Below are positions 5,732 to 10,154 of a stretch of 44,407 nucleotides of DNA, one piece after another (position 1 is the first letter of the stretch; the number at the start of each line of letters is the position of its first letter). Position numbers and translations under genes: made by a program. The notes under the pieces were generated by a model. The model had not been told where the DNA came from and ran no database searches. It saw nothing but the letters and a program-made list of their open reading frames with translations. The stretch spans positions 1 to 44,407 of IMG/VR virus record IMGVR_UViG_3300020182_000063; one strand, 5' to 3'. The stretch comes from a virus.

Positions 5732-6604
5732 TTAATCATATTGAGATTGAACAATTTTTTGATGCATTATGTCTTGTGCAAAGTTCACTCTACGAGCATT
5801 TGCGTTGTCTGGTAGAGTACTATCTTTCAGCATTTCTACATCTTTATATTCCCCTCCCTTAATTTGCTCGAAATAAGTTCTAGGCAAATAATTCGTTGCC
5901 ACTAATGCGTTATGCAACAGTGTATCTTGGGCTTCCTGTAGGCCTGCCCCAATTGACAATCCTAGCATCTTCTCTAAACTTTCTCTTACTTTCTCTTCCG
6001 TGGCCTTAGCAAATTTATCTCGTTCTTTCTTTTCTTCTTCGTCTCTTTGCGCTTTTGTATTTGCTTTGCGGTCTAATTCTTCCTGAATATAGTCTTCACT
6101 CGAAGTATCTATTTCAGGTTCTTGAATTAACGTGAGTGGGTCAATATAACCTGGGCATTCTGGATCAGACTGAGGATTATCACACGGAACATACTGATAT
6201 GTGTAATAAACCTCTGGGTCTAAAACTGTTCCAAAGCCTTCTACTTCGATAGAACCATCACCCCAAAAATCAATTCCTATACCACCTACAGGAATTGTTT
6301 TGTTAATCGTATTGCCTGGCAAACCTGACCAGTCGTCTGTGCTTCTAAAGATATACCCATTTCCTTGAGCATTCTCATTTTGAACGTGAACCAACATATC
6401 GGCTTCAGGGTCTTTTTCAGTGGTATATCTATAGATTACATTGTTTACAGTCAATCCCGTCGCTTGCGGCAAGATATTAGACATCACCCAATTCAACCCA
6501 ATATTCGCGGCGTTGGTGGTTGTTCCATATACCTCTTCGCTAGAGTACGAGTAAGAGCAGTAGGCTAACAACACCGGCACTGCCCATGAGTGTCTTAGTA
6601 CCAT
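5732..6604 (-). CDS. Large exported marine-phage protein, function unknown
   Basis: This protein is 290 aa from ATG 6604, chosen because AAGGA lies 7 nt upstream and the product then starts with a signal-peptide-like segment (MVLRHSWAVPVLLAYCSYSY). ATG 6664 would add 20 very basic residues. The central region is a folded beta-type domain (motifs RYTTEKDPEADMLVHVQNEN and WGDGSIEVEGFG) with a Cys pair CDNPQSDPEC. A highly charged coiled coil follows (about 175-225), then a helical C-terminus ending DIMHQKIVQSQYD. It overlaps the upstream exported gene by 65 nt. I recall homologues in other marine phages, all without assigned function. Confidence 0.6.
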   Translation of the reverse strand: MVLRHSWAVPVLLAYCSYSYSSEEVYGTTTNAANIGLNWVMSNILPQATGLTVNNVIYRYTTEKDPEADMLVHVQNENAQGNGYIFRSTDDWSGLPGNTINKTIPVGGIGIDFWGDGSIEVEGFGTVLDPEVYYTYQYVPCDNPQSDPECPGYIDPLTLIQEPEIDTSSEDYIQEELDRKANTKAQRDEEEKKERDKFAKATEEKVRESLEKMLGLSIGAGLQEAQDTLLHNALVATNYLPRTYFEQIKGGEYKDVEMLKDSTLPDNANARRVNFAQDIMHQKIVQSQYD

Positions 6605-7103
6605 TACCGAATCCTTTTTCTTTTTCTTCCGTCGTTTCATCCACGGAGGGTTCAAGTTCTTCATTTACTTTCCATGCTGCTTTTGCTTCATCGCCAATCA
6701 AACCTTCGAAAGGGCAAGGAGTTCCAGCCATCAGCATCGCGTCAAATACTCTTTCATCCTGACACAGAGTAGACACTGCTGCAACTTTCATTCCCATATC
6801 GTACAGAGTTTTCGAAAGTTTTAAGCGTTCACAGTTTGAGTCAGTTATCTGAGAACCCATAGAGATACCCAAAATCTGTGTCTGAACAGCCCCCGCAACT
6901 CCAAAAGTACACAAATCGCTGTTTGAAGTGTTGATAGTAGGCGTAATAGCAGACGCAGGAGGAGACCTCAAGGTAGTCGATGTATCTGATCTTGTAGTAA
7001 CTGTACTGTTAGTAGTAGAATCAGTACGAATAATGTTATCATCAATCGGAGCTTCTTCCGCAAATACGGGAAAGGCTAGTAGTAACAGTAAAATTCTTAT
7101 CAT
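6540..7103 (-). CDS. Exported protein with C-terminal membrane anchor, conserved in marine phages
   Basis: This 187-aa protein has a signal peptide (MIRILLLLLAFPVFAEE), a Thr/Ser-rich linker (25-60), and a conserved core with four Cys (CTFGVAGAVQTQ, SNCERLKLSKTLYDMGMKVA, LCQDERVFDAML, GTPCPFEGLIG). An acidic linker and a C-terminal hydrophobic helix follow (about 170-187). The layout suggests anchoring in the inner membrane with the Cys core in the periplasm. From memory this core is common in marine phage genomes and is uncharacterised. It is the first exported gene in the cassette. Confidence 0.65.
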   Translation of the reverse strand: MIRILLLLLAFPVFAEEAPIDDNIIRTDSTTNSTVTTRSDTSTTLRSPPASAITPTINTSNSDLCTFGVAGAVQTQILGISMGSQITDSNCERLKLSKTLYDMGMKVAAVSTLCQDERVFDAMLMAGTPCPFEGLIGDEAKAAWKVNEELEPSVDETTEEKEKGFGNGTKTLMGSAGVVSLLLLLVL

Positions 7104-7162: not shown

Positions 7163-7471
7163 CTACCATTTTACCTTATCCGCCCAGTAAGCTGCACTTA
7201 GCTTACCCTTTGCAATATTTCTAGCATGACGAGCTTTAAAAGAACGACGACGAGCAGCAGCTGCCTTAGACTCACCCGCTTTCTTGGGAGAACCTGAGAC
7301 ACCTTGCTGACCGAATCGAATTGTTTTTACCTTGCCGCCAGCTTTTGCTACGACAACATGAGATTTTTTGGGATGCTTGGGAGTTCTTTTTGGTTTATTA
7401 AAACCAGAAACTCCAGCTCTTTTAAGGCGGGGATCTTTCTTTCTAACGCTTCTTCGTTTTTTTGCTGCCAC
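7163..7471 (-). CDS. Basic phage protein (DUF5872-like)
   Basis: This 102-aa protein contains over 25% Lys+Arg. It starts at GTG 7471 inside the end of the preceding small gene. Conserved features are RLKRAGVSGFNKPKRTP, HVVVAKAGGKVKTIRFGQQG, and the C-terminal FKARHARNIAKGKLSAAYW. This pattern recurs in many tailed phages (DUF5872-type, from memory). It most likely binds nucleic acid or is a small virion component; neither is shown here. It is the last of three consecutive basic genes. Confidence 0.75.
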   Translation of the reverse strand: MAAKKRRSVRKKDPRLKRAGVSGFNKPKRTPKHPKKSHVVVAKAGGKVKTIRFGQQGVSGSPKKAGESKAAAARRRSFKARHARNIAKGKLSAAYWADKVKW

Positions 7472-7607
7472 TTTTCTTTCTCTTCTTCTTAAACCCTGCT
7501 TTCATTAGGGAATAAGCTTTGGGTGAGATAGTAGACTTTTTCTTCGTTCTACTAGTACCCTTCTTTTTTCGGCGGTTTATATTTGCATACAATCCACGAG
7601 CAGCCAT
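7443..7607 (-). CDS. Small Lys/Arg-rich phage protein (54 aa)
   Basis: The 54-residue protein begins MAARGLYANINRRKKKGTSR, has STISPKAYSLMKAGF, and ends in a Lys-rich tail. The SPKAY..MKAGF element is a recurrent signature of a small phage protein family seen in marine phages (from memory). Its ATG shares one base with the TAA of the upstream gene (TAATG), and its 3' end overlaps the next basic gene by 29 nt. Function is unknown; a nucleic-acid-binding or packaging-related role is possible from composition alone. Confidence 0.65.
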   Translation of the reverse strand: MAARGLYANINRRKKKGTSRTKKKSTISPKAYSLMKAGFKKKRKKSGSKKTKKR

Positions 7608-7735
7608 TATTTACGTTTCTTCTTTGATTTCTTTTTCTTCTTAATATTCTTTAAGAAAGCCATTGGCATCTTTTGCTTCCCTTTTTTAGAGGGTCTTCCT
7701 TTCTTTTTGCCGTAAGTACCTTTTCCTGCTGGCAT
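7607..7735 (-). CDS. Small Lys-rich phage protein (42 aa)
   Basis: The 42-residue protein begins MPAGKGTYGKKKGRPSKKGK, a motif (GKGTYG.K.GRP.KK) common to tiny phage proteins of unknown function, then MPMAFLKN and a poly-Lys tail. It has a strong AAGGAG site upstream of ATG 7735. About 45% of residues are Lys or Arg. It is translationally coupled to the next gene. Confidence 0.65.
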   Translation of the reverse strand: MPAGKGTYGKKKGRPSKKGKQKMPMAFLKNIKKKKKSKKKRK

Positions 7736-7758
7736 GTATGAACTCCTTTTATAAATCG

Positions 7759-7938
7759 CTATGCCATTTGAATGGCTGGAAGTCTATCTTCCGGTTCTAC
7801 TAATACGCTAAGGTTTCCACAAACTACTTGTTGATTTCTCTCAACACATTTGCCACATTTAGACCCCACTTTATGAATAAGAAAGGGGTCTTTTTCTAAG
7901 TCTTTACTCGATATATTATTGCAAATACATACATACAT
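7759..7938 (-). CDS. Minimal Bfd-like [2Fe-2S] ferredoxin
   Basis: This 59-aa protein begins MYVCICNNISSKDLEKD and has VGSKCGKCVERNQQVV. This is the Bfd (bacterioferritin-associated ferredoxin) [2Fe-2S] layout: C-x-C at Cys4/Cys6 and C-x2-C at Cys28/Cys31. In Escherichia coli Bfd the second pair is at 38/41, so about ten residues of the helical part are missing here. The C-terminus diverges after an extra Cys40. Cellular Bfd reduces bacterioferritin to release iron; a role in iron release or Fe-S handling is inferred. The ATG at 7938 follows an AGAGG ribosome-binding site that can pair in a small hairpin. It lies directly downstream of the large structured RNA region. Confidence 0.75.
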   Translation of the reverse strand: MYVCICNNISSKDLEKDPFLIHKVGSKCGKCVERNQQVVCGNLSVLVEPEDRLPAIQMA

Positions 7939-7942
7939 AAAG

Positions 7943-8457
7943 ACCTCTATAATAGGTGGGGGCGCGTTACGCTTTAAGGCTGATTGCTCACCCCCAGGTG
8001 TTCGATGAGGTGTAGTGCTTCTTCGGGGAAGTCTTAACTACTCCATGACAGTTTGCCTCATCTCAGAAATAGTGGCCTTTTATTATCAGGAAAAAAGCCT
8101 TAAAACCTACACCCGGATTAGATCCTTTTGATTAACGTGGCGTGCATACACGGAGATGGTCTACGAGTTCTCTTCTCGGCAGGGTTTATGTTTTAACGTC
8201 GTCTCTAGCCTGAAAGACTCGACGTGCCCATAGGAATCGGTACCAGTTTATGGGGCAACGGGGTCATTAGCTCCCCAAGGGCAGTTTATATCCGCATCGG
8301 ACTGCCTTCCGAAGAGTCACTTATCGTAGCAACTATACCGTCTAACTAGGAGGAAGTTAGAATCCTCCACTCACTTACGCCTGAGGGGTATGGGCGATAC
8401 TCCAAATAACTAGGGGGTATCTCTAGTGGATTTTTAAAGAGTTTCCTCTCTTTTATG
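7943..8457 (-). ncRNA. Large structured RNA (~515 nt): candidate ornate ncRNA or giant 5' leader
   Basis: A gene-free region is transcribed leftward from a perfect sigma70 promoter (8464-8492). No reading frame of useful length crosses it on either strand and its GC content is visibly higher than its flanks. Helices seen by eye, in RNA order: 8453-8448/8441-8436; 8421-8414/8403-8396; 8368-8363/8354-8349 (or 8361-8355/8347-8341); 8306-8298/8294-8280; 8257-8249/8232-8225; 8224-8220/8201-8197; 8182-8175/8167-8161; 8099-8092/8081-8074; a three-tier arm 8062-8056/8010-8004 with 8041-8037/8016-8012 and 8031-8028/8024-8021 inside; and 7996-7989/7964-7957. It does not match tRNA, tmRNA, RNase P or group I/II intron cores as I know them. 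No terminator separates it from the Bfd-like gene, so it may be a separate RNA or a leader. Confidence 0.7.
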
Positions 8458-8463
8458 AATACA

Positions 8464-8492
8464 ATTATAACGGTAAATAGGTTAAGTGTCAA
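8464..8492 (-). promoter_or_regulatory. Consensus sigma70 promoter for the structured RNA
   Basis: TTGACA (8492-8487), 17-nt spacer and TATAAT (8469-8464) are a perfect match. An A-rich tract (AAAAAATAGTTC) precedes the -35. Transcription should start near 8457, immediately before the first hairpin of the RNA. Confidence 0.9.
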
Positions 8493-8505
8493 GAACTATT
8501 TTTTA

Positions 8506-8691
8506 TTAACTGTCGAAAAAATCATCATAATTTGGGTAAGGTATCTCAAACTCAAACATTTCTCCAATATCATTTGTTACGGTATAAGTAAAAGTAGCAG
8601 TGTCAAAACTGTCATTTACTACTACAGAGATTGCTCTCTGTTTAGCTTTCTTATACTTTGCGAAATCAATAATATTAGAAGTAGTCTTCAT
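8506..8691 (-). CDS. Small phage protein, function unknown
   Basis: This 61-aa protein has a basic N-terminal helix (NIIDFAKYKKAKQRA) followed by a beta-rich, acidic C-terminus (FEIPYPNYDDFFDS). It overlaps the upstream gene by 17 nt and is the last gene before the promoter of the structured RNA. No family is recognised. Confidence 0.55.
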   Translation of the reverse strand: MKTTSNIIDFAKYKKAKQRAISVVVNDSFDTATFTYTVTNDIGEMFEFEIPYPNYDDFFDS

Positions 8692-8932
8692 CAGTTCCGA
8701 ATCCTGCGGAGGCTAATGCGTCTCCGTCCCAATCAAATAAATCATTGTCTCCATCATTGTAACCTTCTTCAATACGAATTTCGTTTACAATAACTTGTTG
8801 AACTAACTCCCACGCATAATCTGCGCTAATTGAAAGCTGAACAGAAATCTCTGCCGCCATCTCTTCAGGTTCTTCGTCCCACATTGCTAAAACAATGCTT
8901 TCTGCTTCCTGATACAACCTATCCATCATCAT
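8675..8932 (-). CDS. Acidic helical phage protein, function unknown
   Basis: This 85-aa protein has about a third Asp+Glu. A helical N-terminal two-thirds (AESIVLAMWDEEPEEMAAEI; SADYAWELVQQVIVNEI) resembles a small three-helix bundle, followed by an Asp-rich tail (NDGDNDLFDWDGDA). It begins in an ATGA overlap with the iscU stop; the second and third Met codons are also possible starts. No catalytic motif is seen. Its coupling to iscU suggests co-expression, not necessarily a shared function. Confidence 0.55.
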   Translation of the reverse strand: MMMDRLYQEAESIVLAMWDEEPEEMAAEISVQLSISADYAWELVQQVIVNEIRIEEGYNDGDNDLFDWDGDALASAGFGTDEDYF

Positions 8933-9306
8933 ACTTGTTTCTCTTTGTAATCTTTTATCGCAGCTTTTATAGCATCTTCTGCTAGTACGCTACAATGAAT
9001 CTTAACAGGTGGAAGTGCAAGTTCATTAGCTAAGTCCGTATTTTTTATATTACCAGCCTCTTCTAAGCTCTTGCCTTTTACCCACTCACTTAACAGTGAG
9101 CTGGAAGCAATAGCGCTTCCACACCCATAAGTTTTAAATTTAGCGTCTAAGATAATATTATCTTCTACGTCTATCTGTAGAACCATTACGTCACCGCACG
9201 AAGGCGCACCCACTAAACCTGTACCAACAGTCTGGGAATCTTTGTCGAGTTTTCCCACATTCCGTGGGTTTTCATAATGATCCATAACCTGTTCGCTGTA
9301 TGCCAC
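8929..9306 (-). CDS. iscU: IscU-type Fe-S cluster assembly scaffold
   Basis: This 125-aa protein is full length for IscU. It builds [2Fe-2S]/[4Fe-4S] clusters from sulfur given by IscS. All key residues are present: Cys37 and Asp39 in GAPSCGDV, Cys62 in TYGCGSAIASSS, and the LPPVKIHCS motif with the HscA-binding LPPVK, His104 and Cys105. It begins MAYSEQVMDHYENPRNVG, very close to proteobacterial IscU as I remember it, which suggests fairly recent acquisition from a host. The start is GTG 9306 with GGAGAGG upstream. No IscS, IscA, HscAB or ferredoxin gene adjoins it, so it must use host partners. A Bfd-like ferredoxin lies about 1 kb downstream. Confidence 0.95.
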   Translation of the reverse strand: MAYSEQVMDHYENPRNVGKLDKDSQTVGTGLVGAPSCGDVMVLQIDVEDNIILDAKFKTYGCGSAIASSSLLSEWVKGKSLEEAGNIKNTDLANELALPPVKIHCSVLAEDAIKAAIKDYKEKQV

Positions 9307-9585: not shown

Positions 9586-9863
9586 CGTCCAATGTCCTTA
9601 ATGTTATCTTTACCAATTACCATGTAACCACCCTTATTATAGGCAATCGCTACGGTATGGTTTCTGCTTTCTTCTCGCTTGTACGAAACATCCGCTGGTG
9701 GCTTATACTTCGTCATAGGAGCAGAAGGGTAGTACTTATCCTCCCTCATATTCTTAAACAAAGGGCCAGAAGCGGGGCGAAACACTGGTTCGGTCTTCCG
9801 AGTCCTTTTCACACTACGCTTCCTACCCGAGTAAGAATAGTCAATACTTCCTGAAATTATCAT
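9582..9863 (-). CDS. Basic phage protein, first gene of the iscU operon
   Basis: This 93-aa protein has a basic N-terminal region (YSGRKRSVKRTRKTEPVFR), a Pro-rich middle, and the C-terminal block VAIAYNKGGYMVIGKDNIKD ending DIGR. Similar C-terminal blocks occur in small proteins of marine phages (from memory). A strong AGAGGGAAAA site precedes the ATG, and the promoter at 9887-9915 lies 24 nt upstream. Confidence 0.6.
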   Translation of the reverse strand: MIISGSIDYSYSGRKRSVKRTRKTEPVFRPASGPLFKNMREDKYYPSAPMTKYKPPADVSYKREESRNHTVAIAYNKGGYMVIGKDNIKDIGR

Positions 9864-9886
9864 AGTTTTCCCTCTTTTGAAATATA

Positions 9887-9915
9887 ATTATACTGGCAAA
9901 GAGGATTCTTGTCAA
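9887..9915 (-). promoter_or_regulatory. Sigma70 promoter of the iscU operon
   Basis: TTGACA (9915-9910), 17 nt and TATAAT (9892-9887). The -35 contains the TGA stop of the gene at 9912 and is preceded by the same AAAATAATTC tract as the promoter at 1126-1154. Confidence 0.85.
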
Positions 9916-10154
9916 GAATTATTTTCCCTATGTAGTGCTTTTAATACTTCTGCCCACTGTTCCTCTGTAACACCGGCGTGATGGCCAGGAGCTGTTACCT
10001 TTTTCCATACTGGAAGTTCGCCCGACGGAGCTGTATTCACATACCCGTCAGACGTTATCTTGAGTTCCTCTCCTTCACGCCCACGTTCTTCGTTACCGTC
10101 TGCATTCAGTTCGGTTAACGCCTGCTGAAGCAATCTATAGTTCGGATTCGACAT
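9912..10154 (-). CDS. Small phage protein, function unknown
   Basis: This 80-aa protein starts at ATG 10154 (MSNPNYRLLQQALTELNADG) with GGTGAT 7 nt upstream. A TTG two codons earlier is less likely. The C-terminus contains a helix, EEQWAEVLKALHRENNS. Its TGA stop is part of the next promoter's -35 box. No family is recognised. Confidence 0.55.
   Translation of the reverse strand: MSNPNYRLLQQALTELNADGNEERGREGEELKITSDGYVNTAPSGELPVWKKVTAPGHHAGVTEEQWAEVLKALHRENNS

Follow-up and report, generated by a model that had tools for sequence, protein, structure and literature searches.

The window analysed here, a 44.4-kb IMG/VR virus record (44,407 nt) of a phage genome which we take to be of marine type, encodes on its minus strand a large RNA which, on the evidence of covariation across phage lineages, is very probably a structured RNA under selection. 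Selection on RNA structure covers the 3' domain in all three lineages recognised, A, B and C, and also the 5' domain of lineage B, and the promoter is conserved along with the RNA. The class to which this RNA belongs is in all likelihood absent from Rfam. The features of the locus are as follows.

8464-8492, minus strand: sigma-70 promoter, with -35 TTGACA at 8492-8487, -10 TATAAT at 8469-8464 and a 17-nt spacer
7943-8457, minus strand: large structured RNA, with homologues at the matching place and no Rfam match
8506-9306, minus strand: end of the upstream operon, with iscU at 8929-9306, an 85-aa ORF at 8675-8932 and a 61-aa ORF at 8506-8691
7759-7938, minus strand: Bfd-like 59-aa ORF, its start codon 19 nt after P4, with a Shine-Dalgarno-like AGAGG at 7948-7944
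8436-8453, minus strand: 5'-terminal hairpin, AAAGAG/CUCUUU in the window; relatives have another sequence and the same hairpin (from the alignment)
8396-8421, minus strand: hairpin H2, GAUACCCC/GGAGUAUC, loop with CUAGUUA
8223-8316, minus strand: core 1, with GGCAGU/ACUGCC, GGGG/CCCC and the stem GCCC-AUA/UAU-GGGC at 8256-8226
8179-8222, minus strand: optional hairpin element, in lineage A and not in C (alignment), separating the two core parts
8109-8178, minus strand: core 2, CGAGAAGAGAACUCG ... GGAUCUAAUCC, 97% identity between A and C
8074-8099, minus strand: linker hairpin, GGCUUUUU/AAAAGGCC, site of the 49-50-aa ORF in B and C
8004-8062, minus strand: 3' domain arm, with P1 at 8062-8056/8010-8004, P2 at 8041-8038/8015-8012, P3 at 8031-8028/8021-8018 and conserved UAAGAC
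7958-7995, minus strand: P4, GGGGGU/GCCCCC, at 7995-7990/7963-7958, enclosing P6 (7972-7970/7966-7964) and the conserved CUUAAAGC (7978-7971)

A preliminary description of the locus had proposed a perfect sigma70 promoter firing into about 515 nt without any usable frame, a position between an iscU operon and a Bfd-like gene, and the lack of a terminator before the latter, and all three claims held. The promoter matches at 12/12 positions and begins 14 nt beyond the stop of the 61-aa ORF closing the iscU operon, while reading frames from start to stop on the RNA strand do not exceed 20 aa in the window; in relatives the longest measure 20-47 aa, and they are not conserved. The 5' end of the RNA probably lies near 8457. 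The identity of IscU was confirmed (TIGR01999, 215 bits against a cut-off of 192). HMM support for Bfd was weak, at 22.7 bits where the cut-off is 75 bits; the cysteines of the Bfd-like protein, of CxC...CGKC type (CxC + CGxC), are nevertheless invariant among relatives. No minus-strand terminator was found between the RNA and Bfd in the window. It should be added that Bfd is followed, at 7163-7738, by a run of very basic small ORFs of about 42, 54 and 102 aa, the last of which corresponds to PHROG 7595, of unknown function and known from Roseobacter and cyanobacterial phages.

When Bfd, IscU, the 85-aa protein and short blocks of DNA served as queries, homologues of the RNA turned up at the matching place in 24 IMG/VR contigs and one contig of a metagenome-assembled genome (MAG), forming the three lineages. 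Lineage A, with an RNA of about 515 nt, consists of the window, 16 IMG/VR contigs at 90-100% identity and the MAG contig L206; lineage B (L093, L094, L165, L184, L185) has an RNA of about 780-950 nt, and lineage C (L192, L193, L204) one of about 790 nt. In all of them the RNA is placed between genes of the 85-aa/61-aa type and Bfd, behind the same kind of promoter, the -35 and -10 elements with the 17-nt spacer being retained throughout (TTGACT/TATAAT in B and C); in one lineage B contig an additional gene stands within this interval, between the upstream genes and Bfd. The upstream gene order is kept in lineages A and B, and in the C contig IscU is not between these genes. L206 (DNHN01000359.1), 6.3 kb in length, is filed in a Bacteroidetes MAG and syntenic with the window phage; it is likely a misbinned lineage A phage contig. 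It was the one real match in a scan of genome contigs, which returned also one chance match in Dyella. Queries from A, B or C revealed no RNA homologue in the collection of cultured and reference phages, and the RNA is absent from L187, L189 and L190, whose resemblance is limited to the motif at the C-terminus of the 85-aa protein. The 3' domain occurred at most once per record searched. A 16-mer, GAACTCGTAGACCATC, was tried as a homologue marker and discarded: it matched 45 stretches, and beyond lineage A most of these appear to be chance matches.

The folding energy of the window RNA was ordinary (z = -1.56, with 8/100 shuffles as good; z = -1.11 for the opposite strand), and thus comparison had to decide; single-sequence folding was not discriminating as a test of structured RNA. 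Helices P1-P6 of the 3' domain, P5 included, were drawn from lineage A alone, where in seven sequences every cell pairs and three pairs vary on both sides. RNAalifold applied to lineage A alone was abandoned, as there was too little variation and P1 was mispaired. A covariance model of the 3' domain, R1, built from seven lineage A sequences only, was then searched against 610 kb and recovered lineage C at E 4e-20 and lineage B at E 2e-8 to 1.8e-3, all syntenic; nothing else in the 610 kb was convincing, with a weak overlapping opposite-strand match at E 0.06. In Roseobacter phages CRP-1 and CRP-9 and in two other phages with the 102-aa gene, no convincing R1 match lay near that gene.

In the joint alignment of 13 sequences from A, B and C, 98.8% of pair cells pair, and compensatory double changes are seen in 10/26 pairs of the 3' domain, a figure matched by 0/500 shuffles; sliding the partners as a control lowered pairing to 37-55%. 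This alignment was fitted to the model and is therefore biased towards structure, but the two-sided changes are visible in the raw letters despite this bias. P1, P2 and P3 have three pairs each with changes on both sides, and P6 has one covarying pair. P1 reads GAUGAGG/CCUCAUC in the window, GGUAAGG/CCUUACC in L088 and GGUGAGG/CCUCACC in lineage C and L006, and P3 takes the forms CUUC/GAAG, CUUU/AAAG, CGUA/UACG, CCCC/GGGG and CCUC/GAGG; distant phages, that is to say, preserve the RNA shape while the letters change. P4 is invariant in 13/13 sequences; as its 6-bp core never varies, it offers no covariation for itself. Two motifs, UAAGAC and CUUAAAGC, are conserved and unpaired, except that the final two letters of CUUAAAGC enter P6. 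As to the helices drawn in the preliminary description, its three-tier arm at 8062-8004 is real and covaries (P1/P2/P3), and its bulged stem at 8257-8225 is likewise real, with one compensatory pair from lineage B; its 8-bp GC-rich arm at 7996-7957 is kept everywhere as the 6-bp core 7995-7990/7963-7958. The absence of covariation, which that description had named beforehand as refuting it, does not apply, clear covariation having been found. Conserved small frames, another of its refuting outcomes, do not apply in the lineage of the window; lineages B and C do carry a 49-50-aa ORF, but between the structured domains and not inside them.

The 5'-terminal hairpin is rebuilt from different letters in L003 (AATAAGA/TCTTATT), L006 (ACAAGAG/CTCTTGT) and lineage C (GAGA/UCUC), and in H2 one pair is CG, AU or UA depending on the sequence, with one C-A mismatch in the window. 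Core 1 is 96% identical between A and C, against 70-79% for most neighbouring genes and 91% for the 54-aa gene. A model of core 1, R2, built from lineages A and C, scores about 1e-24 in C and only E 0.1-0.4 in B, though at the right place. Its stem 8256-8226, with the loop UAAAYUGGUAYC(N)AUUCCUAU, shows one compensatory pair in B, from C-G to A-U; with this exception the A/C core helices remain unproven because they are invariant, and GGCAGU/ACUGCC is not claimed as conserved, since B does not keep this helix. Core 2 was not recognised in lineage B, and its helices are without covariation.

Lineage B has a 5' domain of its own, mostly unlike those of A and C, of about 520 nt with 110 pairs in the fold. 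Two-sided changes affect 21/110 of these pairs in only four sequences, with 98.6% of cells paired; 0/500 shuffles equalled this, and sliding left 36-46% paired with 0-3 such pairs. The structure was predicted from the same alignment on which it was tested, which favours pairing. In the lineage B 5' part (L184:3490-3590, L094:4900-4975) hairpins recur whose loop is CUCCCUGCUGA or similar and whose stems vary, and CCUCC stands in possible hairpin loops of the 5' parts of A and C. Inferred from sequence alone, these could conceivably be anti-Shine-Dalgarno or protein-binding repeats.

Between the 5' and 3' domains, lineages B and C carry a conserved ORF of 49-50 aa with a hydrophobic N-terminus. 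Identity between B and C is about 50% and third codon positions vary most, from which the ORF is very likely a real gene. It is absent from the window (lineage A), where the core is nevertheless present, and therefore the core is not merely a leader of this ORF. Furthermore, B and C have a permuted tmRNA, co-directional and directly after Bfd, with tags ANDEVYDLAIAA and ANDEVYDLAMAA. A tRNA/tmRNA search of the window was empty, with no permuted tmRNA by RF04321 or ARAGORN, and none was found in the lineage A records, though all of these may be fragments.

The 8.5-kb contig L193 has two permuted tmRNA genes, at 579-877 and 6532-6902, with tags ANDEVYDLAIAA and ANDDIYSLAA, respectively; each is downstream of a Bfd-like ORF, and the second follows an HNH-like ORF as well. 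The same contig holds a separate unit (L193:7680-8475) composed of a promoter (8473-8445), a B-type RNA module, a 50-aa ORF and a 15-bp intrinsic terminator (7718-7684), and it does not run into Bfd. The unit is without the 3' domain, and consequently it demonstrates modularity and does not settle the choice between a stand-alone RNA and a leader. Short tandem direct repeats, ACAGTTTTGTACTTGAT, are located near its 5' end.

That the RNA has no recognisable class and recalls GOLLD and ROOL without matching them, as the preliminary description had it, is supported by comparison with known families. The whole window gave no match in cmscan against Rfam 15 at gathering scores, and around the locus all 4227 families, with E allowed up to 10, gave chance matches only; the B and C loci, at E up to 5 or 1, gave only tmRNA and chance matches. 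The GOLLD model (RF02032) run alone at E up to 10 on 12 records (the window and lineages A, B and C among them) found nothing, and neither did ROOL (RF03087) run alone on 12 records at the same E, where the control genomes were equally silent. Rfam intron families gave no match, group-II-D1D4-1 (RF01998, a group II intron family) having been searched separately, and the promoter directly upstream leaves no 5' exon, which speaks against an intron.

GOLLD and ROOL, phage and prophage RNAs of unknown function, assemble into cages of RNA alone; in GOLLD the 3' part is conserved, the 5' part less so, and tRNAs are sometimes found in the linker (PMC12286853). The RNA described here is similarly a large phage RNA of unknown function with a variable 5' and a conserved 3' part and a gene-holding linker; the 3' domain is common to A, B and C, and the B 5' domain mostly differs. 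In contrast to GOLLD, there is no model match, the RNA adjoins the permuted tmRNA, Bfd and IscU and not a tRNA island, and its linker carries a small protein gene where that of GOLLD carries tRNA. With ROOL, whose model has 574 positions, it shares phage or prophage location, unknown function and dense helices (PMC12286853), but it has no RF03087 match (a search lacking a positive control) and no tRNA island. In the marine phage Melnitz a glutamine riboswitch shares an early operon with a two-piece tmRNA (PMC9004378), an arrangement alike in that structured RNA elements and such a tmRNA occur together in a single early operon; however, the riboswitch resembles the known glnA RNA class, whereas the present RNA is several times longer and matches none. 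The packaging RNA of phi29 is a phage-encoded structural RNA of about 170 nt tied to the genome end; it was compared with the present RNA through Rfam only. In size, phage location and layout the RNA thus resembles GOLLD and ROOL; it is not shown to be a member of either, and by analogy it may, possibly, work alike.

The explanation we prefer, in the absence of expression data and with the chances finely balanced, is a new large phage RNA class that acts on its own after processing. Host RNA polymerase, starting at the sigma-70 promoter, would make the RNA as the leading segment of a longer transcript, inferred to carry also Bfd and, in B and C, the permuted tmRNA; since that tmRNA can function only once it is excised, RNases are likely to free the structured RNA too. 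The freed RNA would act during infection as a folded RNA or RNA-protein particle, as supposed for GOLLD/ROOL, and the inner ORF of B and C would be an optional passenger in the linker, much as tRNAs are in that of GOLLD. Independence is suggested by the size, by the core without ORF in A, by the L193 unit with its own promoter and terminator, and by Bfd occurring in other phages without such an RNA upstream; further points in favour are the A/C core identity, the tmRNA after Bfd in B/C and the GOLLD-like layout (PMC12286853). Against it, in every complete case 19-26 nt without a terminator separate the 3' domain from the start codon of Bfd, which is leader-like; structure in the invariant A/C core helices is unproven; and recent recombination may have spread the A/C core, the downstream 54-aa gene being also 91% identical. 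A bolder form, rated just short of an even chance, is a giant phage RNA class unrelated to GOLLD/ROOL, with two domains and an optional gene for a small membrane-type protein in the linker, that would be made early with a Bfd-like Fe-S protein and tmRNA and serve as an RNA machine or particle in trans.

The preliminary description had left the choice between a stand-alone RNA and a long leader; both remain, the former favoured by a modest margin. According to the leader explanation, which we rate as clearly less likely than not and for which there are no reporter data, the RNA is a very long structured, cis-acting mRNA leader, whose 5' domain controls the 49-50-aa ORF in B and C and whose 3' domain controls translation or stability of Bfd. 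Immediately following P4, a CCUA motif could base-pair with the ribosome-binding site of Bfd. In B and C a UAGG within the loop of P4 offers this motif a second partner, and a pseudoknot switch would result. The spacing from P4 to the Bfd start, fixed at 19-26 nt with CCUA in the gap in all lineages, the missing terminator before Bfd, and the closing of the lineage B 5' domain shortly before the Shine-Dalgarno of the inner ORF all support it. However, Bfd-like genes of other phages lack such an RNA upstream, the second Bfd of L193 sits behind its own promoter, lineage A has the core but no ORF, and the CCUA/UAGG pairs are invariant and hence unproven, with UAGG missing in lineage A. Moreover, to our knowledge no leader approaches 500-900 nt with about 110 pairs, the RNA being far larger. 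It is possible that both hold.

That the RNA is a divergent representative, gone unrecognised, of a known class (GOLLD, ROOL, a group I/II intron, RNase P or a tmRNA relic) appears highly improbable: the general GOLLD-like layout and the tmRNA nearby in B and C would fit it, but Rfam scans yield tmRNA and chance matches only, the GOLLD and ROOL models are silent (for ROOL the controls too), B and C possess a complete tmRNA in addition to the RNA, and the promoter leaves no 5' exon. That the region is non-functional, a decayed gene or spacer conserved merely through close kinship, could draw on the ordinary folding energy and on the 90-100% identity of lineage A members. This is virtually ruled out, as compensatory changes across lineages stand up to controls and the structure model detects distant lineages; covariation excludes it in the 3' domain and in the 5' domain of lineage B.

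Very few classes of large structured RNA have been described, and for the two phage classes considered here, GOLLD and ROOL, no function is known. A further unrelated class with clear covariation between lineages would, if true, show that phages repeatedly evolve big RNAs, and the natural architectures with and without inner ORF and tmRNA, beside Fe-S genes, offer handles on the function of such RNAs.

Perfect TTGACA-N17-TATAAT sites number ten in the 44-kb window (1126-43448), the RNA promoter included, with 0.12 expected in shuffles, and for this reason the window phage appears likely to use host-type promoters widely, an inference from sequence alone. These ten perfect promoters would chart many of its transcription units. 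The 45-bp RNA promoter region (8458-8502) has a 78% repeat at 9881-9925, before an ORF at 9863, upstream of iscU.
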